The notes below the pieces were generated by a model, which made no database searches, was not told where the DNA came from, and saw nothing but the letters and a program-made list of their open reading frames with translations. From Bacteroidales bacterium (lineage in GTDB: Bacteria > Bacteroidota > Bacteroidia > Bacteroidales > UBA932): a stretch of DNA of 64,000 nt. Shown here piece by piece: positions 8,578 through 20,218 of the stretch; the stretch's first letter is position 1, and each line of letters starts with the position of its first letter. The stretch lies in NCBI GenBank assembly GCA_016290415.1, contig JAEETP010000003.1, forward strand, positions 20,059 through 84,058, in the 5' to 3' direction. A program made the position numbers and the translations under genes.

Positions 8578-9879
8578 TTAATGAATCGTTTTTAAGACTT
8601 CGTCAAAGCTATCTCCCTTAACGTAGTTGCACTGCTTCTTGTTTATGGGTATTGTCTTCAGGAGGCCTCTTTTTAGCAATGGCTTTATGTCTGACGATGC
8701 GGTGGGCTTGCTTATGCCGAATTTTGAGGCAATGTCGTTGGTAGATAGAGCCAACATCGGGTTGTCCCGTATCATTGACAGTATTGCCGCCTGACGGTGG
8801 TTTATGCCCCCAATGGACAAAATATCTATAGCCCTTTGCTTTTGAGATATCTTTGTCTCTATATATGATTTCAGGTCGTCAAAGGCGTTCTTGAGGACCT
8901 TAAGGTTATATTCAATAAAGTAACCGACATCGTTGTTATCTAACTCTGTGTGTATATATGCATTCTCGTAAGAGGACTTGCTCTTTATGATGACAAGCGA
9001 GATAGAAAGGTATTCGGTAAGCCAATATCCGCTCTTTAGCATATACCAATAGAATAATGCCCTGGCGGTTCGTCCGTTGCCGTCTACGAATGGGTGATAA
9101 TAACCTATTAGGAAATGTATTGTTATAGCCTTGATTATGGGGTGGAGGAAATACTTCCCATCTGAATTGGCAAATGCGCAAAGTTTCTCTATAAACGAAG
9201 GAAGAAGCTTAAAGTCCGGAGGGGTATGAACTATCTCACCGGTAATACCATCCTGTACTACAATGTTGTTACTGGTGCGCAATACTCCCGCATCTTCCGG
9301 ATTGTCCAGGGTGTTCTCCGTCATTATTTCGTGCAGCCGCAGAATAATATCTTCTGACAGAGGGGCGTTTCTGTTTTCTGTTATATACTGGATAGCTGCA
9401 TAGTTGTTGTGAATCATCTGCTCTGCACGTGTTCTGGGGGAGATGTTTCTCCGGAGCATTTCTTTTGCAACCTTGCGAGTAGTTGATGCACCCTCGATCT
9501 GGCTTGAGGCAATAGCTTCTTCCATCTGAGAGGAAGAGAGGAATTTCTCTTGACTGTCTCTGGGAATGATGGACTCGGTGCCCCAATAGCCGCCAAAGTT
9601 CATGTCAAAGTCGTGGCACATCTCCTGCATATGGCTTGTGACAGGAACCCTGATCCCAAATTCTGGCCAGTAGAATGCATAAAGACTTATTCTGGACAGT
9701 TGAGTGGCGGCCCATAATTCCTGAGGAGTAAGATCCCCAGCCTTTTTGTATTTTACATCCGACCAGTAGAGATACTTGTTGTTGATGTCAGCAATTGTGG
9801 ATAAGACTTCTTGGTTGCTAAGTTTTCCAACAGCATCTCTGATGGTTTTCTGGGTCAGAACAGGCGGTTTCTCTAGCAT
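8578..9879 (-). CDS. Fic family protein (AMPylase-type fold with C-terminal winged helix)
   Basis: Fic core 'HPFVDGNGRTARALFYWYML'; inhibitory-helix-like 'SSQIEGASTT'; C-terminal HTH-like segment. Confidence 0.88.
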   Translation of the reverse strand: MLEKPPVLTQKTIRDAVGKLSNQEVLSTIADINNKYLYWSDVKYKKAGDLTPQELWAATQLSRISLYAFYWPEFGIRVPVTSHMQEMCHDFDMNFGGYWGTESIIPRDSQEKFLSSSQMEEAIASSQIEGASTTRKVAKEMLRRNISPRTRAEQMIHNNYAAIQYITENRNAPLSEDIILRLHEIMTENTLDNPEDAGVLRTSNNIVVQDGITGEIVHTPPDFKLLPSFIEKLCAFANSDGKYFLHPIIKAITIHFLIGYYHPFVDGNGRTARALFYWYMLKSGYWLTEYLSISLVIIKSKSSYENAYIHTELDNNDVGYFIEYNLKVLKNAFDDLKSYIETKISQKQRAIDILSIGGINHRQAAILSMIRDNPMLALSTNDIASKFGISKPTASSDIKPLLKRGLLKTIPINKKQCNYVKGDSFDEVLKTIH

Positions 9880-10718: not shown

Positions 10719-10757
10719 AACAGCAGCCACCGGAAATCCGCGGTGGCTGCTGCTTTA
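10719..10757 (-). terminator. Intrinsic terminator of lipoprotein cassette 1
   Basis: CAGCAGCCACCGgaaatccgCGGTGGCTGCTG, followed by a T tract on the minus strand. Confidence 0.7.
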
Positions 10758-10788
10758 TCAGGGTGGGGATCAGATCCCCGGAAGTGCG

Positions 10789-13029
10789 TTATTGGGCTGA
10801 GTATACGATCTTGTTGAACCTGAAGAATCCGGCTTGAGTGCCGCGCTTCAGGTCAATCTGAATCCTGTAATACATATTTGCCTGAGGATTGGTAACGGTG
10901 GCAGTAACATCACCCTGACCGGTTCCGTCGAATTCGTAAGTAGTGGTTGAACTGAAGGTATTGGTGGGTGATACAACCAGTCTGATGGCGTTGACCAGGG
11001 AAGGATCAGACTGGGTTATCGACAATGTCACTGTCTTAATTGCCTCCTCAATCGGTGAATTGGTTGTAATGGCAGCCACTGAAGTGTTATCGCTACGCCC
11101 GGCGCGCATCTCTGTCCAATTGGCGTCACCGCCATTATTGATGTATGCTACAGTCAGGTTCAAACCATCACATATATTGATGAAAGATGTGGTATATGTG
11201 GTGACGTTTGTGGTAAAGGTGGTGCCTTTTGCGAATGTAACAGTGTAAGGACGGCTGGGGTCGGTGACCGCAACGTTGCACGTTGCGGATGCGGCGTGGT
11301 ATGACGCATTACCGGCAAATACAGCAGTGATAGTTGCAAAGCCTCTTGCAACACCTGTCAGTTCGCCAGTAGAAGGATCAACGGTAACAACATTGGGGTT
11401 GGAAGATGAATACGTTACCGGAAGTCCGGAAGGTTCTATGGATACAATATTGCTTACTCTTTCGTCCACATTAACAGATATGTTAGAAGTAAAGCCCATA
11501 GAAGGCGTTGGGAGAATAGGCTCATCTGCTTTCACGCGTACATAGAAGGCGAAAGTTTGGTCCTTAATATTTTCAGGGATATCACTAAACAAATCACTAA
11601 TAATTGGTATGTAAGAATAACGACGCCAATCAGAAGAATTATAAATTCCTACCAAACAATTCCTGTTGGTATTAAAAAGATAACCGTGATAAATAGAGAA
11701 GGTGTTGTCACTATTAGTACCAACGCGTACACCATCATTACTTCCTGTGCAGTAAAGCCAAGTGGACGTATTACCGTTAGGATAGAAATGGTAGACCGTT
11801 CCCCACCACCGATGAGAATCCGAGCTCAGCGACCACCGGATCCTCTCTGCAGGCTCTTTTTTAAGTCTGCTGCCGTCGGCCGTCAAAGTCACAGGAACAG
11901 CCTGAGGCGCAGCAGAGGTACCCTTATCGTTCGACATAGCAAAAGTATTACCATTATCGCCCACGATGACGAATACGTCATCAGATGTAATGGAAGAAAT
12001 ATCTCGTTTAACCCAGTAATACTCCTCCTTCTGTTCTGTCTCTGCAGAAGCCATATTGATGCCCATAGTGTTGCGTGCATTCCCCTTGAGGGTCTTGCTG
12101 ATTCCCGTCCAACTCTTATGATATGTCGCCTTGTCGGTCTCTACCACAACATCGAGGGATGTAAGGGTCACCGGCATTACGCTGAGCCAGATATTGATAT
12201 TCGTTTTGTTCTGCGCATCTTTTACAAACGAGAGGTGCGAACCGTCGAGCGTAACGACATTCGACGTTCCGTTGCCGGTGAATGAGCCATCTGCCACGGA
12301 AACAACCTGTTTGCCGGTAAGGTTTGCACCTTCCTGAGCTGTGAGAACCACCTTGAGGATGTGCTCGTCATCTTCAACTCCCTGGAAGTCCTTGAGGGTA
12401 AAGTTACCGTGAGCCACAACGCGGGTCCAATACAAGTTGATGTGTTGGGAAGGGAGTCCGGTGGACCTTACGGTCTTGGACTTGCCAACCAGAATGTCTG
12501 TCTCAGGGTCAAAGGAGTCTGCTGCGGGAATCTGGTATTCCTTCAGGGCAACAGGCACATTAGGAGCACCATTCTGGTCCGTATTAAATTGAGAGCTGGG
12601 GTATACCGCGTAGAATACAAAGTCTCCGGTTTCTGTAGGGCCGGTAAAAGCATTGGTAACAGGTACGGAAAAAGTACCGATGTTTTGCTTCTCTGAATCT
12701 ATGGTAACACCGTTGGACTTATAGAATTTGATGCTATTGTTTGGAGATGCATTTCCGCTTGCATATGCGGCACTCTTGGCCCACCAATTACCGTTGAATG
12801 TAAAGCCAATAAGAATCTTGTCGTCCGTCGACCAAACAATTGATTTTGTGCCTGCGTCCCATGCAGTCTTGGTGGAGGGATCCAGCTGCGGTCTTTCTCC
12901 GGTAAAAGTCAGCTCTGTAACTTCACCGATAGTGTTACCGTTATCCAGACGTTCTTGATCAAGGCCTTTCGAGCACGAAACAGCCGCGAGAAGAGTAACA
13001 AAAATTGCGAGTAAATATCTTTTCATCAT
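10789..13029 (-). CDS. Fimbrillin-like / bacterial Ig-like (BIG2-type) surface lipoprotein, copy 1
   Basis: Signal and lipobox 'LLAIFVTLLAAVSCSKG'; 'STKTAWDAGTKSIVWSTDDKI' fimbrillin-like region; BIG2-like 'YSSSNPNVVTVDPSTGELTGVARGFATITAVFAG'. Confidence 0.75.
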   Translation of the reverse strand: MMKRYLLAIFVTLLAAVSCSKGLDQERLDNGNTIGEVTELTFTGERPQLDPSTKTAWDAGTKSIVWSTDDKILIGFTFNGNWWAKSAAYASGNASPNNSIKFYKSNGVTIDSEKQNIGTFSVPVTNAFTGPTETGDFVFYAVYPSSQFNTDQNGAPNVPVALKEYQIPAADSFDPETDILVGKSKTVRSTGLPSQHINLYWTRVVAHGNFTLKDFQGVEDDEHILKVVLTAQEGANLTGKQVVSVADGSFTGNGTSNVVTLDGSHLSFVKDAQNKTNINIWLSVMPVTLTSLDVVVETDKATYHKSWTGISKTLKGNARNTMGINMASAETEQKEEYYWVKRDISSITSDDVFVIVGDNGNTFAMSNDKGTSAAPQAVPVTLTADGSRLKKEPAERIRWSLSSDSHRWWGTVYHFYPNGNTSTWLYCTGSNDGVRVGTNSDNTFSIYHGYLFNTNRNCLVGIYNSSDWRRYSYIPIISDLFSDIPENIKDQTFAFYVRVKADEPILPTPSMGFTSNISVNVDERVSNIVSIEPSGLPVTYSSSNPNVVTVDPSTGELTGVARGFATITAVFAGNASYHAASATCNVAVTDPSRPYTVTFAKGTTFTTNVTTYTTSFINICDGLNLTVAYINNGGDANWTEMRAGRSDNTSVAAITTNSPIEEAIKTVTLSITQSDPSLVNAIRLVVSPTNTFSSTTTYEFDGTGQGDVTATVTNPQANMYYRIQIDLKRGTQAGFFRFNKIVYSAQ

Positions 13030-13047
13030 ACAATGTTTTAATCAAGA

Positions 13048-13206
13048 TTAATCACCATCATCACCAAGCTCACCAAGGTCTTGGTCGCCATAGCCAGCAT
13101 TGGAATCGTTGCCACTGCCGGACTGGAGAATGTTCTCCTCGAAAACCAGCTCGAGGATTTCGGTTACAGGCTGAGAATAAATCTCTTTTTCCTTTTTTAC
13201 GTTCAT
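13048..13206 (-). CDS. Small 52-aa protein, candidate precursor peptide, copy 1 (absent from ORF track)
   Basis: MNVKKEKEIYSQPVTEILELVFEENILQSGSGNDSNAGYGDQDLGELGDDGD. Repeated upstream of the paralogous lipoprotein; 4 of 5 codon differences are synonymous. Confidence 0.75.
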   Translation of the reverse strand: MNVKKEKEIYSQPVTEILELVFEENILQSGSGNDSNAGYGDQDLGELGDDGD

Positions 13207-13285
13207 TTTTGTATAGAAATGTTATTATTATCGACGATAAATTTTTCGGGCGCGAATATAGTAACTTTTTGGCAATTTTGATACC

Positions 13286-13320
13286 ATAAAAATAGCAGCC
13301 ACCCGGGAAGGTGGCTGCTG
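13286..13320 (-). terminator. Intrinsic terminator of lipoprotein cassette 2
   Basis: CAGCCACCcgggaaGGTGGCTG with a T tract on the minus strand; homologous to the cassette 1 terminator. Confidence 0.7.
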
Positions 13321-13356
13321 TCTTATCAAGGTAGGGATTAGACCTCCAGAATTGCG

Positions 13357-15639
13357 TTATTCTGCGTAAATAATCTTGTTGAACCTAAAGTGACCGTTCG
13401 AACCATTATTATAATAACTACCATCACCTTTCAAATCAATTTCAATCCGATAATACATATTAGTCGCAGGAGCAGTTATGGTAGCTGTAACATCACCTGT
13501 GCCAGTAACATTAAAGGGGTATGAGTCTGCTGAATTAAAGTTATTTGTGGTGGATACAAACAACATGACAGAGTTTACAAGGTTAGTGTTAACTTGTGTA
13601 ATTGATAATGTTACTGAGTTAATAGCTTCTGGAATGGCTGAATTGGTTGTTATTGTAGCCACCGAAGCGCGTTGTCTATTACGCCCAGCGCGCATTTCTG
13701 TCCAATCCTCGTTGCCACCATTATTGATGTATCTCAGAGTAAGGGCTAATTCATCGCAAGTGTTAACAAATCCTGTTGAATTAGTATATGAGGTCACATT
13801 TGTTGTAAATGTAGTGCCTTTCTTGAAAGTAATAGTATAAAGATCTCCAGGATTGACAACATTAACCTCACAGGTTGCAGAAGCAGGATTATAGGATGCA
13901 TTACCTGCAAAGTTGGCGTGGATGGTGGTTGTACCACGAGAAATGCCTGTTACTTCGCCTGTGTCGGGATCTACGGAAGCAATGGAATCATCATCTGAAT
14001 AGTATGTCAAAGCCAGTCCGGAAGGATCAGTGGATGCCATATTGCTAACGCTCTCGCCCATATTAACTGTTATAGGAGAAGACGTAAAGCTTATAGAAGG
14101 TGTAAGTAGGTCATCATCTTCAGCGACTCTCACATAGAATGCAAAAGTCTGGCCGTTAATATTGGGTATTTGACCATTATTACTCCGCGCATAACAACGC
14201 CAATCCGTTGAGTCGTAAATGCCAATATAGCGTCTTGAATTCCCAACGGTATTCACTAGATAGCCAGAACGCCCCATCTCGAATAATTTGTTGTCACCTG
14301 TGCCAACCCTAACGACATCACCAGTAGAGCTGGTGCAATAAAGCCAAGTAGTTGTAGAACCATTGGGATAGAATGTGTAATATGTCGTTTCGCCAGACGA
14401 TTGTTTGCTGAGATTCCACTGGAGCGTAGCTGAGGGATCACCAATAAGTTTGTCGCCAGTAGCAGTAACCGAAACGGGAACGGCGCTAGGTGCGGATGTG
14501 TCACTATTATTAGACATTGCATATGTATCTCCATCATCGCCGACAATTACAAATACATCAGTCGTAGTAATAGCGGATATGTCTCTTTTAACCCAATAAT
14601 AATTCTTTTTCTCCCTGGTTGCAGAGGCCATATTTATGCCCATAGTGTTGCGGCGATTGCCCATGAGGGTCTTGCTGATTCCCGTCCAACTCTTATGGTA
14701 TGTCGCTTTGTCGGTTTCAACAACAACATCCAGCGCGGTCAGGGTCAACGGCATAACACTGAGCCACACCTTCAAATTTGTTTGTTCTTCGGAAGTGGTG
14801 GGATCTACTTCATTTACAAATGAAAGGTTTGTACCATCAAGTGTGACAGTATTTGATGTGACATCGCCGAGATAATCACCAGTGGCTAAGGATATTTTTT
14901 GTTTGCCCGTCAAGTTGGCACCTTCCTGCGCTGTAAAAACAACCTGGGTGATGGTCTCGTCATCTTCAAATCCTACAATTCTCTGGAAATTCTTCAGTGT
15001 GAAATAGCCGTGAGCCACAACTCGTTTCCAATACAAATCAATAGTTTCAGTAGGGAAGCCGGGTTCGCTGGTTGTGATAGTATGAGAGTTGCCTACCAAT
15101 ATGTCTGTTTTGGGATCAAAGGAGTCATCTACGGGATACTGATATGAATTTAGAGTTGCGTAGATATCAGGGACAGCATTCTGTGTATTGGTGTTAGCCA
15201 GAGTGCTGGGATAGAACGAATAAAAGACAAATTCTCCCGATTCTGTGGGGCCGGTAAAGGCATTATTACCGACAGGAACGGTAAAAGTACCAATGTTCTG
15301 CTTCTCTGAATCAATAGTAACACCGTTCGACGTATAGAATTTAACGTTACCGGAACCACTGATGGCGGCATTTTGTCCCCACCATTCTTCATTAAATGTA
15401 AAGCCTATACGAATCTTGTCGTTCTCCGACCAGACGATTTTTGAACCATCCCAGGCAGTCTTGGTGGAGGGTTCCAATTGAGGCCTTTCGCTGGAAAATG
15501 TAAGATACGTGGTTACTTGATCAATGGCGTTATTGTCGTTGGTATTATTGCCATCAATGCGCTCTTCCTCGAGGCCTTTGGTGCAAGAGGCGAGGGCGAG
15601 GATCGAAACGAAAAATGCGAGTAAATATCTTTTCATCAT
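13357..15639 (-). CDS. Fimbrillin-like / bacterial Ig-like (BIG2-type) surface lipoprotein, copy 2
   Basis: Paralogue of 10789..13029 along its length; lipobox 'LALASCTKG'; BIG2-like 'YSDDDSIASVDPDTGEVTGISRGTTTIHANFAG'. Confidence 0.75.
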   Translation of the reverse strand: MMKRYLLAFFVSILALASCTKGLEEERIDGNNTNDNNAIDQVTTYLTFSSERPQLEPSTKTAWDGSKIVWSENDKIRIGFTFNEEWWGQNAAISGSGNVKFYTSNGVTIDSEKQNIGTFTVPVGNNAFTGPTESGEFVFYSFYPSTLANTNTQNAVPDIYATLNSYQYPVDDSFDPKTDILVGNSHTITTSEPGFPTETIDLYWKRVVAHGYFTLKNFQRIVGFEDDETITQVVFTAQEGANLTGKQKISLATGDYLGDVTSNTVTLDGTNLSFVNEVDPTTSEEQTNLKVWLSVMPLTLTALDVVVETDKATYHKSWTGISKTLMGNRRNTMGINMASATREKKNYYWVKRDISAITTTDVFVIVGDDGDTYAMSNNSDTSAPSAVPVSVTATGDKLIGDPSATLQWNLSKQSSGETTYYTFYPNGSTTTWLYCTSSTGDVVRVGTGDNKLFEMGRSGYLVNTVGNSRRYIGIYDSTDWRCYARSNNGQIPNINGQTFAFYVRVAEDDDLLTPSISFTSSPITVNMGESVSNMASTDPSGLALTYYSDDDSIASVDPDTGEVTGISRGTTTIHANFAGNASYNPASATCEVNVVNPGDLYTITFKKGTTFTTNVTSYTNSTGFVNTCDELALTLRYINNGGNEDWTEMRAGRNRQRASVATITTNSAIPEAINSVTLSITQVNTNLVNSVMLFVSTTNNFNSADSYPFNVTGTGDVTATITAPATNMYYRIEIDLKGDGSYYNNGSNGHFRFNKIIYAE

Positions 15640-15657
15640 ACAATGTTTTAATCAAGA

Positions 15658-15816
15658 TTAATCACCATCATCACCAAGTTCACCAAGGTCTTGGTCGCCA
15701 TAGCCAGCATTGGAATCGTTGCCGCTGCCGGACTGGAGAATGTTCTCCTCGAAAACCAGCTCGAGGATTTCGGTAAGAGGTTGAGAATAAATCTCTTTTT
15801 CCTTTTTAACGTTCAT
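15658..15816 (-). CDS. Small 52-aa protein, candidate precursor peptide, copy 2 (absent from ORF track)
   Basis: MNVKKEKEIYSQPLTEILELVFEENILQSGSGNDSNAGYGDQDLGELGDDGD; 51/52 identical to copy 1. Confidence 0.75.
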   Translation of the reverse strand: MNVKKEKEIYSQPLTEILELVFEENILQSGSGNDSNAGYGDQDLGELGDDGD

Positions 15817-15911
15817 TTTTGTATAGTAATTTTATTATTCTTCTGGGTACAAATTTTACAAACCGCAAAGTTAAAAATTTTCCTGAAAATACGTAGTATT
15901 TTATAATTCAC

Positions 15912-15919
15912 TACTTTTG
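15912..15919 (+). promoter_or_regulatory. Bacteroidetes-type -7 box (TACTTTTG)
   Basis: Matches TAnnTTTG, 8 nt before ATG 15927; implies a leaderless or near-leaderless transcript. No clear -33 TTTG seen. Confidence 0.4.
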
Positions 15920-15926
15920 CAGTGAA

Positions 15927-17048
15927 ATGGCAAAGGAAAACCGACATACCTCCGCGTTTTTTGCGCTGATGAGGGCGGGGCTCTGGGAGACCGGGGCTCG
16001 GCTGGGGGTGTATGCGCCGGTGGACTGGGAGGCGATATACAATCTGGCGCTGGAGCAGTCTGTGGCGGGGATTGTTGCGGCTGGATTGGACCAGGTGGAA
16101 GATTTGAAGGTGGCCAGGCAGGATGCGCTGCGCTTTGTGCAGCAGGTTATCCCGCTGGAGAAGCGCAACTCCGATATGAATGCCTTTATCTCAGAGCTGG
16201 TGGGTAAGCTGCAGCTTGATGGCATCCGTGCCGTGCTTATAAAGGGGCAGGGGGTGGCGCAATGCTATTCAAAGCCTCTGTGGCGTATGTCGGGCGACGT
16301 GGATCTGCTGCTTGACCAGGAAAACTATAATAAGGCGAAAGAACTGCTGCTTCCGATGGCCTCGGCGGTTGAAAGGGAGCACCCAAGAAATCTTCACCAG
16401 GGGTTGGAATTCGGCAAATGGGTGGTGGAACTTCACGGCAGTTATCACGCAAATATCTCGAAGCGGTCGGCGGCGGTTTTGGACCGGCTGCAGGGCGAAA
16501 CTTGCACAGGCGATGCGACCCGCACCTGGCGCAATGGCGAGGTGGACATTCTGCTGCCGAGCCCCGACAACGACACCCTGTTCATCTTCTCGCACATCCT
16601 GCAGCACTTTTTCTTTGGCGGAATAGGGCTGCGCCAGGTATGTGACTGGTGCCGGCTGCTGTGGACTTATAGGGAGAATATTGACCGGCAGCTGCTGGAA
16701 TCGCGGATAAAGGAAATGGGCCTTATGACCGAATGGAAGGCGTTCGCGGCTCTGGCGGTGAAATGGCTGGGAATGTCGGAAGAGGCGATGCCGCTCTATG
16801 ACGCATCGGCACGCTGGGAGCGCAAAGCCAGCCGAATTGTCAAATTCATCCTGAAGGTCGGCAACTTTGGCCACAACCGCGACATCAGTTACCACCAGAA
16901 ATATCCGTTCGTGATATACAAAGCAATTTCGCTGGCGCGCCATACGGGCGATTTTTTCAGATATCTTACAATCTTCCCCCTGGACTCGTTTGGAGTCTAT
17001 TTCAGGATGCTGGCATCGGGCTTCGAGACCGCCGCGAAAGGGGAGTAG
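15927..17048 (+). CDS. Nucleotidyltransferase family protein (PF14907-type)
   Basis: 'IRAVLIKGQGVAQCYSKPLWRMSGDVDLLLDQENYNKAKELL' is typical of this family, which occurs in RiPP and lasso-type clusters. Confidence 0.75.
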   Translation: MAKENRHTSAFFALMRAGLWETGARLGVYAPVDWEAIYNLALEQSVAGIVAAGLDQVEDLKVARQDALRFVQQVIPLEKRNSDMNAFISELVGKLQLDGIRAVLIKGQGVAQCYSKPLWRMSGDVDLLLDQENYNKAKELLLPMASAVEREHPRNLHQGLEFGKWVVELHGSYHANISKRSAAVLDRLQGETCTGDATRTWRNGEVDILLPSPDNDTLFIFSHILQHFFFGGIGLRQVCDWCRLLWTYRENIDRQLLESRIKEMGLMTEWKAFAALAVKWLGMSEEAMPLYDASARWERKASRIVKFILKVGNFGHNRDISYHQKYPFVIYKAISLARHTGDFFRYLTIFPLDSFGVYFRMLASGFETAAKGE

Positions 17049-17053
17049 TGCTT

Positions 17054-18679
17054 TTATTCGGGTATATCGACTACGGCATCTGCAAAGCGGATGGCGGCGT
17101 CGCGGTGTGAGATAAGGATGATGGTCTTGCCGGCGTGATGGCGGCGATGGATGTTCTCCAGCATCCGGCTTTCGGTGTCGGCGTCCAGGGCAGAGGTGGA
17201 TTCGTCAAGAATAAGTATGCCACCGGGACGCAGCAGGGCACGGGCTATGGCGATGCGCTGCGCCTGACCTTCTGACAGGCCGCTGCCTGACTCTCCGCAG
17301 GGGGTGTCTAGTCCCTCCGGCAGATCATATACGAAAGCGGCTTCGGCGGTGTAGAGCGCCTCCTTGATTTCACTTAGGGAGGCATCTTCTTTGGCCAGCA
17401 GCAGGTTGCTGCGGATGGTGCCGCTGAGCAGGGAGTTGCCCTGTGGCACGTACATAAAGTTGACTCTGAGAGCGCCTCCTGCAGGGTGGCCATCCACTGT
17501 GATCTGGCCCTCGGTGGGTTGCAGCAGGCCCAGGATAAGGTTGATGAGGGTGCTCTTGCCCACTCCGGTAGGGCCGGTGATGACATTGAATGAGCCGGAT
17601 TTGAACTGACAGGAAAAGTTCTTGAGCACAGGCCTGCTTAAATCTGGATATGCGAAGGTCACGTTGGAAACCGTGACTTCCGGTGCATCGGGTAGCAGAA
17701 TGGATTCCGCCTTGGGCTCTTCTTCAAGCTCCTGAAGGTCCATCAGGCGTTCTATGGAGGTGATTGCCCTGATGAATGTGGGAACCTGGCGGCCAAGTTC
17801 TGCGATGGGGCGCTGTACCTGTCCAACCAACTGTAAGAAGGCGGTCATCATACCGTAAGTTACGGTTCCGGCGGCTAGGCCAAAGATGCCCCACAGGAAG
17901 GCGGCTACGTGTCCGGCCTGGAAGCCGAGCAGCATCAGACCTCGGGCAAATGCATTATAGTTGAGGCGCTTGCGCGTCTTGCATTCGATATCTGACTGGA
18001 GCCAGCCAAAATGGGTCATTATCCGCTCTACACCCGTAAGCGTCAGCATCAGCACGCGATGCTGAAAGCTTTCTTGCATAGTCTGCTGGACTTCGCTCTC
18101 ACGGGCGCGTATCTCCGCCATAATCTTACGGAACCTTTTGAAGAACAGTCTGGACCCGACCACTGCGGCAAACATCAGAATAATAAGTACCCAAAGCAGG
18201 TTGGGGGCCAGCGTCAATAGATATACAGATGCTGCCAGCAACTGTGCAAGTGTGATGATAATGCCCGGGAAAGAGTCCACAAGCAGATCTGAAGTGATGC
18301 GGATGTCGTCTTCCAGACGGTTCACGATGTCGCCCGAGAGGAACTTCTCCCGGCCATTCCAGCGGCTGCGGAGCACGTGGCCGAAAAGCTGATTGCGGAT
18401 GTGGTTTTGCGCCTTGACGCTGTTGTATGAATTCCACCAGTTGGCAAAGATGATTACGGCAATCTGAACCGCCAGGATCCCTATGAACAGTGCGATGCCC
18501 CGGCCCAGGGAGTCACTGCTCACCTTGGTGGCGATATCCACCAGGTGTTTGCTGGCCCAGACAAAACCCAGCGATGCAGCTATTCGCACAAGGCCCGCGG
18601 CGATGCTTACCAGCATCCGCCACCGAAGGGTGGAGGACATAGCCCACAGGGTTTTTATGCATTCAGAAAGTTTACGCAT
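17054..18679 (-). CDS. ABC transporter, fused permease/ATP-binding (type I exporter)
   Basis: N-terminal TM region; Walker A 'GPTGVGKST', signature 'LSEGQAQRIAIARALL', Walker B 'ILILDEST'. Confidence 0.88.
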   Translation of the reverse strand: MRKLSECIKTLWAMSSTLRWRMLVSIAAGLVRIAASLGFVWASKHLVDIATKVSSDSLGRGIALFIGILAVQIAVIIFANWWNSYNSVKAQNHIRNQLFGHVLRSRWNGREKFLSGDIVNRLEDDIRITSDLLVDSFPGIIITLAQLLAASVYLLTLAPNLLWVLIILMFAAVVGSRLFFKRFRKIMAEIRARESEVQQTMQESFQHRVLMLTLTGVERIMTHFGWLQSDIECKTRKRLNYNAFARGLMLLGFQAGHVAAFLWGIFGLAAGTVTYGMMTAFLQLVGQVQRPIAELGRQVPTFIRAITSIERLMDLQELEEEPKAESILLPDAPEVTVSNVTFAYPDLSRPVLKNFSCQFKSGSFNVITGPTGVGKSTLINLILGLLQPTEGQITVDGHPAGGALRVNFMYVPQGNSLLSGTIRSNLLLAKEDASLSEIKEALYTAEAAFVYDLPEGLDTPCGESGSGLSEGQAQRIAIARALLRPGGILILDESTSALDADTESRMLENIHRRHHAGKTIILISHRDAAIRFADAVVDIPE

Positions 18680-18682
18680 AGG

Positions 18683-18949
18683 TTATTCGAGTATGCCGTT
18701 TTCCCGCCAGATGTTCACCATTGTGGTGGCATCTTCGCGAGCGCGGTCTGTGGATACTTCATATCTCTCGGTGAGCAGTGTCACCAGATCTTCTATTTCA
18801 AAGTCTTTGTCCTTGACCTGTTCCCAAAGGTAAGCCGCGGAGTCGTTCAGGGAGAGCATTTTGTTGAAATCTACCAGTGCGAGACCTTCTGCAATTACTA
18901 TATGCTCCCCGCATAGGGAGCGAAGGGTAAAGCCGTCTTTTATCTTCAT
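18683..18949 (-). CDS. PqqD-like peptide-binding protein (RRE)
   Basis: 'MKIKDGFTLRSLCGEHIVIAEG...FNKMLSLNDSAAYLWEQVKDKDFEIEDLVTLLTERYEVSTDRAREDATTMVNIWRENGILE'. ATG at 18949 overlaps the upstream gene by 4 nt. Confidence 0.8.
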   Translation of the reverse strand: MKIKDGFTLRSLCGEHIVIAEGLALVDFNKMLSLNDSAAYLWEQVKDKDFEIEDLVTLLTERYEVSTDRAREDATTMVNIWRENGILE

Positions 18950-19356
18950 ACTATTCGTCGGTATATTGCCAGTAAATATCTTCTGATAGGTTTGAGCAGG
19001 CGCCAAAGGGTGCCGCGGGTGGGTTTGTGGCCGTTTATGAGCACCACGGTGCCCAGTATGTCTTGCGGCCGGCAATGCTCGGTGCCGGAGATGTTTCCGT
19101 CGCCCATAAGTTCTATCTTGCCGTCGCAGGTTTTTATGACACGGTGCAGCACATAACGGGTACCCGCCAGGCGCGCCAGTACTATGTCGCCGACTTCTAC
19201 TCCAGGGAGTTTTTTAAGCGTCACGCTGTCCCTGCCGCCCTTGATAAAGGGAAGCATACTGGTTCCCTTTGGGGTGATGCATACCTCGCGGCCCTCTGCT
19301 AGCAGAGCGCCCGCATCTTCCAGCAGGACTTCGTTGGTGAGGGTCTTTCTATCCAT
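18946..19356 (-). CDS. S24/S26 family (signal peptidase-like) peptidase
   Basis: 'PKGTSMLPFIKGGRDSV' (Ser box), 'GDIVLARLAGTRYVLHRVI', 'LMGDGN'. Confidence 0.75.
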   Translation of the reverse strand: MDRKTLTNEVLLEDAGALLAEGREVCITPKGTSMLPFIKGGRDSVTLKKLPGVEVGDIVLARLAGTRYVLHRVIKTCDGKIELMGDGNISGTEHCRPQDILGTVVLINGHKPTRGTLWRLLKPIRRYLLAIYRRIV

Positions 19357-20218
19357 TTACGGTATTGTAACAGAGTAGGGCGGCATCGCGGTCCGGGCGG
19401 CATTCCAGGCGGTAGAACGGGACTGCAGCGCAGATTCCCTCCAGAGTCCGGTGCCAGCCGTCGGCGCATTCTTTAACAGGCCGGAAAGAGGATGAGGATT
19501 CCATCAGTGTGGCGTAGGCCTGGATTACCGTCAACTTTTTGATATGGTTTTGTGGTGCCTGGCACAGGCTTACGATGGCACCCACGGGGGCGTCCTGGGC
19601 CTTGTAACAGGGCGTCTTGCCGCTCCAGGGGGTGCCATAGACACGGACGGTGCCATCGGGCATCAGCCTGAGGACCGGGTTGTCGTCGTTTAGCAGTTCG
19701 GTGCCGGGGATGTTTTCTATCCACAGGCGGCTGTGGGTGCTCTTACCGGTGCCGCTCCGGCCCAAAAACAAGTAGCCCTTGCCGCAGTTTGTCACTACGG
19801 ATGAGTGTATTACAAGGGCTCCTTTCTGTGCTGTGGAGAAGGTGAACATCAGCATCATGGCCGAGTCAATGGCGTAGCGGTCGTCTGTGCCTGTAAGGTG
19901 TAGTTCGGCACTCTTGAAGTCTTGAGTGACGGCCATCCGACCAGCCGCAGGCTTGTCCGGAACCGGCTGCATTTCAAAGATATAGCCGTTTTCGCTGGTA
20001 TATATGGTGATGACGGGGAAGCCGGGCGTTTCCGGGGTTTTATATAGCAATGAACTGTTTGCCACCGGCATATCAGGCGTCACTCTGAGGGCAAACAGGA
20101 CCTCTATCTCGGGTGTCTGTACCCTGAAAGGTAGTAAGTTAGCAGGCTCGAACGGCAGGTCCTCCGCCGTAAAGCAGAACCCCGCAACGCTATATGCCTG
20201 AAAGCTTTTCATTATCAA
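19349..20218 (-). CDS. HPr kinase-like P-loop protein (HprK C-terminal domain-like)
   Basis: Walker A 'GYLFLGRSGTGKSTHSRLW', 'LLNDDNPVLR', 'GTPWSGK' are typical of HprK-like proteins in PqqD-containing clusters. Confidence 0.75.
   Translation of the reverse strand: MIMKSFQAYSVAGFCFTAEDLPFEPANLLPFRVQTPEIEVLFALRVTPDMPVANSSLLYKTPETPGFPVITIYTSENGYIFEMQPVPDKPAAGRMAVTQDFKSAELHLTGTDDRYAIDSAMMLMFTFSTAQKGALVIHSSVVTNCGKGYLFLGRSGTGKSTHSRLWIENIPGTELLNDDNPVLRLMPDGTVRVYGTPWSGKTPCYKAQDAPVGAIVSLCQAPQNHIKKLTVIQAYATLMESSSSFRPVKECADGWHRTLEGICAAVPFYRLECRPDRDAALLCYNTVNG

Follow-up and report, generated by a model that had tools for sequence, protein, structure and literature searches.

Gene Organization at the Locus

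We analyzed a 64,000-nucleotide stretch of a Bacteroidales genome (assembly GCA_016290415.1, contig JAEETP010000003.1, positions 20,059 to 84,058 of the forward strand; the whole stretch is called the window), in which positions 10,719 to 20,218 carry two small peptide genes and a putative peptide-maturation cassette. An earlier note had described two near-identical 52-residue open reading frames (ORFs), each just before a gene for a large lipoprotein, next to genes for a nucleotidyltransferase (NT), an ATP-binding cassette (ABC) exporter, a PqqD protein, an S24/S26 peptidase, and an HprK-like protein, and had proposed that they form an undescribed system for a ribosomally synthesized and post-translationally modified peptide (RiPP). 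Both ORFs are real, each ending 18 nt before its lipoprotein gene, and the neighboring genes are as claimed. The features of the locus are listed below (RRE, RiPP recognition element).

15658..15816, minus strand: precursor peptide copy 1 (52 aa); YxxP leader motif YSQP at residues 10-13; Ser29 is the candidate phosphorylation site, and cleavage is predicted after Ile26
13048..13206, minus strand: precursor peptide copy 2 (52 aa); differs from copy 1 by one residue
13357..15639, minus strand: surface lipoprotein paired with peptide 1 (760 aa); has a Big_2 domain and, at residues 16-19, a lipobox-like LASC; gene 18 nt past that of the peptide
10789..13029, minus strand: surface lipoprotein paired with peptide 2 (746 aa); has a Big_2 domain; gene 18 nt past that of the peptide
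19349..20218, minus strand: HprK-like kinase (289 aa); P-loop GRSGTGKST, with His138 and Asp179 unchanged across 18 relatives
18946..19356, minus strand: putative leader peptidase of the S24/S26, signal-peptidase-like type (136 aa); no variation at Ser33 and His71 (Ser/His type) or at Asp86, almost none at Glu93
18683..18949, minus strand: discrete RRE of PqqD type (88 aa); modeled structure most like lasso B1 RREs, YxxP-contact Asn and Asp (as in LppB) conserved
17054..18679, minus strand: MsbA-like ABC exporter (541 aa); without a C39 peptidase domain
15927..17048, plus strand: NTP_transf_5 nucleotidyltransferase, NT (373 aa); gene lies between the RRE and exporter genes in relatives such as L071

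Pfam matches were obtained for the PqqD (2e-15), NTP_transf_5 (5e-33), and Peptidase_S24 (2e-5) proteins, and the kinase gave only weak HprK/PEPCK matches. The kinase and peptidase genes overlap, as do the peptidase and RRE genes, and the RRE and exporter genes are 3 nt apart, so these four genes look like one operon giving one transcript. The NT gene is convergent to the exporter gene and divergent from the gene for peptide 1. Just outside the locus (8578-9879) lies a gene for a Fic-like protein, with a motif spotted by eye (HPFVDGNGRTAR); no tie to the cassette was seen.

Linear Polyphosphorylated Peptides (LPP) were shown by experiment in Bacillota in 2026; in that system a SipW-like peptidase replaces the lasso B2 protease, and HprK phosphorylates a core Ser (PMC13381572). 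Because the gene set of our locus matches that of LPP, for which phosphorylation and cleavage by a type I signal peptidase have been demonstrated, this kind of system is no longer undescribed.

A Family of Small YxxP Peptides

The two window peptides are 98% identical, and their genes differ at five codons, four of them synonymous and one a conservative exchange of Val for Leu. Because four of the five differences are synonymous while identity between the two lipoproteins is only 65% (467 of 719 aligned residues), the peptide appears to be translated and constrained, and with its single-residue difference it has been held more constant than the lipoproteins that adjoin it. Gene conversion could also have contributed to the near-identity of the two copies. 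A relative of the peptide (43% identity across 30 residues), encoded on a different contig of this genome, likewise precedes a lipoprotein gene.

A hidden Markov model (HMM) of the peptide, applied to a first set of neighborhoods, found 17 peptides at E<0.02, of which 11 were its own seeds; as no reversed ORF fell below E=1.8, the matches exceed chance. Iteration of the model yielded 59 YxxP ORFs of 34-87 residues. Their tails vary, are frequently acidic or rich in Gly, and frequently end close to a Trp. As the seeds of the HMM were themselves YxxP peptides, conservation of the Tyr and Pro is circular; the residues at Y+16, Y+17, and Y+19 were not directly imposed by the model, yet they were present in the seeds. 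Position Y+16 is aliphatic or Phe and position Y+17 is Ala, Leu, Cys, or Met, each in 59 of 60 peptides. A Ser stands at Y+19 in 43 of the 60 and within one residue of that position in 52, and many cores read AxS, comparable to the AQS of LppA. The family has no Pfam or NCBIfam model, the sole weak hint being a match of lasso_cyano (E=0.07) to the leader of one relative. YxxP ORFs with another core, SLIMM[ST]..PPG, adjoin divergent kinase genes in two relatives (L036:11274-11459 and L039:1595-1789), and both were missed by the main HMM.

Peptides and Cassette Are Linked at the Genome Level

We next considered 393 genomes of the order, calling peptides at E<=0.01 and kinases at E<1e-19, a cut set after a gap between 2.5e-20 and 4e-15 had been seen. 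A strong HprK-like match was present in 25 of the 30 peptide-bearing genomes, compared with 60 of all 393 genomes (Fisher p=2e-18). Within the genus of the window, the 18 S24-positive genomes had a mean of 4.8 peptides and the 8 S24-negative genomes a mean of 0.6 (Mann-Whitney p=6e-4; p=2e-3 after genomes that gave profile rows were dropped), all of these p values being inflated by the relatedness of the genomes. The co-occurrence of YxxP ORFs with the cassette enzymes thus extends across the order for the kinase, and peptide number follows the peptidase within the genus. Five peptide-bearing genomes had no kinase, and none of them had the peptidase; two are 60-65% complete and one has a marginal match.

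The peptide genes are not confined to the cassette. As many as 15 matches occurred in one genome (G111), and on a single 2.19-Mb contig (G247:C8) the six peptide genes all lie over 400 kb away from that for the kinase. With most precursor genes dispersed in this way, a single cassette would be expected to act in trans. Local clustering of peptides with the cassette, as the earlier note had it, therefore stands only in part: the strong signal is at the genome level, and most precursors are distant from the cassette.

A separate scan, of named genomes, gave nine cassette loci, mainly from rumen Bacteroidales and three of them from Clostridia-type bacteria, and further loci came from other relatives. 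The kinase, peptidase, RRE, and exporter genes are kept together in most relatives, with the NT gene sometimes inserted among them and sometimes elsewhere. A YxxP ORF lies within or directly next to the cassette in six loci (L026, L032, L036, L039, L093, and L094).

Some loci carry variants. A radical-SAM-like gene lies beside the RRE gene in a Clostridia locus (L026:8312-12832) and in L094:3681-5680 and L025:1059-4336, the first two of which also have a YxxP ORF; its presence suggests an extra modification branch. Three genomes of the window's genus encode an additional PqqD paralogue (roughly 50% identity) with no kinase or peptidase (L079:6271-10149, L081:9857-13713, and L082:9923-10192), directly before genes resembling polysaccharide export/chain-length genes in L079 and L081. 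LPP in Bacillota likewise co-occurs with capsule loci. Pairs of PqqD and NTP_transf_5 genes with no kinase or peptidase nearby were found at L095:8951-13742, which adjoins polysaccharide-export-like genes, and at L098:9916-11251.

Conserved Residues in the Putative Processing Enzymes

The AlphaFold2 model of the RRE (mean confidence score, pLDDT, 86.8) has the winged helix-turn-helix RRE fold with a leader-binding cleft, and its best matches in the PDB are TbiB1 and TfuB1, lasso B1 proteins bound to leaders. Asn39 and Asp77 (Asn35 and Asp73 counted from the ATG) are conserved to at least 90% across 37 RREs and correspond in the alignment to N33 and D70 of LppB, which hold the YxxP motif (PMC13381572). 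YSQP in the window peptides is a plausible RRE motif, as had been suggested. Profile comparison gave E-values of 4e-8 for TfuB1, 7e-4 for PbaB1, and 0.027 for LppB.

The peptidase has a LexA/signal-peptidase fold, with profile matches to SEC11A/C. Ser33, His71, and Asp86 are invariant in 27 sequences, and Glu93 is nearly invariant; an invariant His takes the position of the Lys of bacterial signal peptidases, as in SipW-type enzymes. When residues were matched by eye, Glu93 apparently fell at the position of the catalytic Asp93 of LppS (S29, H68, D93). The sequence is compatible with a possible Ser/His/Glu signal-peptidase-like active site, and the proposal that this protein stands in for the lasso B2 protease is supported. 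In the kinase, the P-loop is intact and a His and an Asp are conserved, but the protein is distant from housekeeping HprK.

Most Peptide Genes Are Paired with Surface-Protein Genes

A same-strand gene begins within 100 nt downstream of 35 of the 59 peptide genes, and by a simple lipobox rule 28 of these 35 encode lipoproteins. A fimbrillin-like T[KR]...W..GD stretch occurs in 18 of 31 close downstream partners. At other loci, including those of G111 and G326, the peptide gene instead follows a gene for a secreted protein, and in G390-type loci, too, the peptide comes after its partner. Many of the upstream secreted partners end in a common tail like YNLxGxRVxxxxKGLYIVNGKKVxxK, which gives the impression of a type IX sorting domain; no general sorting-tail model matched it at E<=0.01, and only a type IX secretion nuclease family did so, in 2 of 18.

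The partners include proteins with BspA leucine-rich repeat, Big_2, fimbrillin-like, peptidase C10, cohesin/dockerin, and CBM77 domains. Because no single Pfam domain is common to all of them, chemistry specific to one type of partner looked unlikely. The tie to a neighboring surface protein, on which the earlier note touched only briefly, is the most informative feature.

A Model and Its Alternatives

We conclude that the locus probably encodes a trans-acting RiPP pathway, a Bacteroidales version of LPP. Short precursors bearing YxxP leaders would be encoded at several sites in the genome, each beside a surface-protein gene. Homology suggests that the PqqD-type RRE would bind the YxxP leader, that the HprK-like kinase would phosphorylate or polyphosphorylate the Ser at Y+19 (Ser29 in the window peptide), and that the S24/S26 protein would remove the leader just before this Ser; by analogy with LPP, cleavage of the window peptide would follow Ile26 and give a product starting LQSGSG.... 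The NTP_transf_5 enzyme may attach a further group to the phosphate, and the ABC exporter would send out a linear peptide, which, more speculatively, might then act on or with the surface protein made beside it.

The 52-residue peptides are thus very likely substrates of the cassette, and the biochemistry put forward in the earlier note is probably right overall. The note had the Ser either phosphorylated or nucleotidylated. Phosphorylation is the better grounded of the two; deletion of lppN caused no change in the Paenibacillus LPP system (PMC13381572).

Several observations weigh against this conclusion. Three fairly complete genomes have peptides and neither kinase nor peptidase: G059 (the marginal match), G200, and G326 (89% complete, six matches). 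Conversely, 35 kinase-positive genomes have no peptide at E<=0.01, for which divergent-core ORFs of the L036 and L039 type may be a reason. The relatedness of the genomes tempers the association statistics, the NT gene does not adjoin the cassette in every relative, and the Ser is not exactly at Y+19 in 17 of the 60 peptides. The LPP leader reads YxxPxVLxHQxIxFET followed by xxS, whereas the window family keeps the YxxP and a nearby Ser without HQxIxFET, and its predicted cleavage site is one residue farther from the Tyr. The RRE, finally, is far nearer by profile to TfuB1 than to LppB, and for that reason common descent with Bacillota LPP is not established.

This last point, together with the differences in the leader and the Glu93 at the apparent position of the catalytic Asp93 of LppS, fits a pathway that came to resemble LPP by convergence, independently assembled from a lasso-type RRE, an HprK, and a signal peptidase; the RREs of LPP and paeninodin are themselves reported to be independent in origin (PMC13381572). 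Such an origin would be compatible with our conclusion, and we think it rather unlikely in view of the shared five-gene set, the shared placement of a Ser near the cleavage site, and the similar gene set in the Clostridia locus L026. The system is likely to work like LPP. A true lasso pathway, with its cyclase and B2 protease encoded elsewhere, would explain why the RRE is nearest to lasso B1 proteins in profile and fold and why HprK and NT also occur in paeninodin-type lasso clusters. It is scarcely credible, because a signal-peptidase-like enzyme occupies the place of B2, and we rejected it because 17 of the 19 cassette genomes, the window's among them, have no Transglut_core3 (B2) anywhere in the genome. 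This agrees with the earlier view that the product is not a lasso peptide; that reader noted no asparagine-synthetase-like cyclase in the window, and no genome-wide search for one was made.

Two further explanations separate the small ORFs from the cassette. They could be translated regulatory leaders (attenuators) of the lipoprotein genes that lie near the cassette by coincidence, as their ends fall within about 30 nt of the lipoprotein start in the window and in many relatives. The same family, however, also lies after the partner gene in G111-, G326-, and G390-type loci, which disfavors this explanation; the amino acid sequence is constrained and copy number tracks the cassette, and we judge attenuation very improbable. 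Alternatively, the cassette could mature only clustered precursors, like those in or beside it in the six loci named above and in Bacillota LPP clusters, with the scattered YxxP ORFs forming an unrelated small-protein family. This is improbable, since scattered and cassette-linked peptides share a single HMM family and the spacing of YxxP and Ser, and since copy number depends on the cassette.

If the precursors are matured in trans, the system might mark peptides genome-wide, one cassette maturing many scattered phosphopeptides, each of which is made together with its own neighboring surface protein and acts on it, whether as signal, cap, anchor, or assembly factor. We advance this tentatively, as an idea with somewhat less than an even chance of being correct; if true, a RiPP machine would serve surface display rather than one secreted natural product. 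A matching system in rumen and gut Bacteroidales, with precursor genes tied to lipoproteins and secreted proteins, offers a testable idea of what LPP-type peptides do. It also indicates the enzymes for a small-protein family that lacks a database model, and it implies that RiPP precursors may lie far from their enzymes, so that cluster-based mining misses them.

Comparison with Known Systems

The partner proteins belong to known classes of Bacteroidales surface protein (fimbrillin-like, Big_2, and BspA-type), in no description of which did we find a linked processed-peptide gene. A literature search, outside supplementary files and subscription papers, found no published account of the arrangement in Bacteroidales, and both an LPP-like system in this order and scattered precursors paired with surface proteins look new.

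Paeninodin-type lasso clusters share with our locus the kinase, the NT, a PqqD B1-type RRE, and the ABC exporter. They differ in that our locus has a signal-peptidase-like enzyme and no Transglut_core3 B2, a YxxP rather than a WxxP motif, and no cyclase seen in the window. The peptidase resembles the archaeal- and ER-type signal peptidases SipW and SEC11 in its Ser/His active site and fold class. Unlike them it is short and cassette-linked, and by analogy with LppS its substrates would be leaders presented by the RRE and not Sec signal peptides.

The closest resemblance is to LPP. In the lpp cluster of Paenibacillus alginolyticus, the kinase puts up to four phosphates on core Ser3, cleavage of the leader by LppS requires LppB, and the unphosphorylated precursor is cut poorly (PMC13381572). 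Our locus likewise has a discrete RRE, an HprK-like kinase, a SipW-like signal peptidase, an NTP transferase, and an MsbA-like exporter, together with a YxxP leader and a Ser a few residues past the predicted cleavage site, and it too is without B2 or a visible cyclase. Differences lie in the peptidase (apparently Glu93 rather than the Asp93 of LppS) and in the RRE, which is nearer to TfuB1. LPP has been described as confined to Bacillota, with its biological role left open (PMC13381572), whereas the system of the window belongs to Bacteroidales, and its precursors are scattered and paired with surface proteins.

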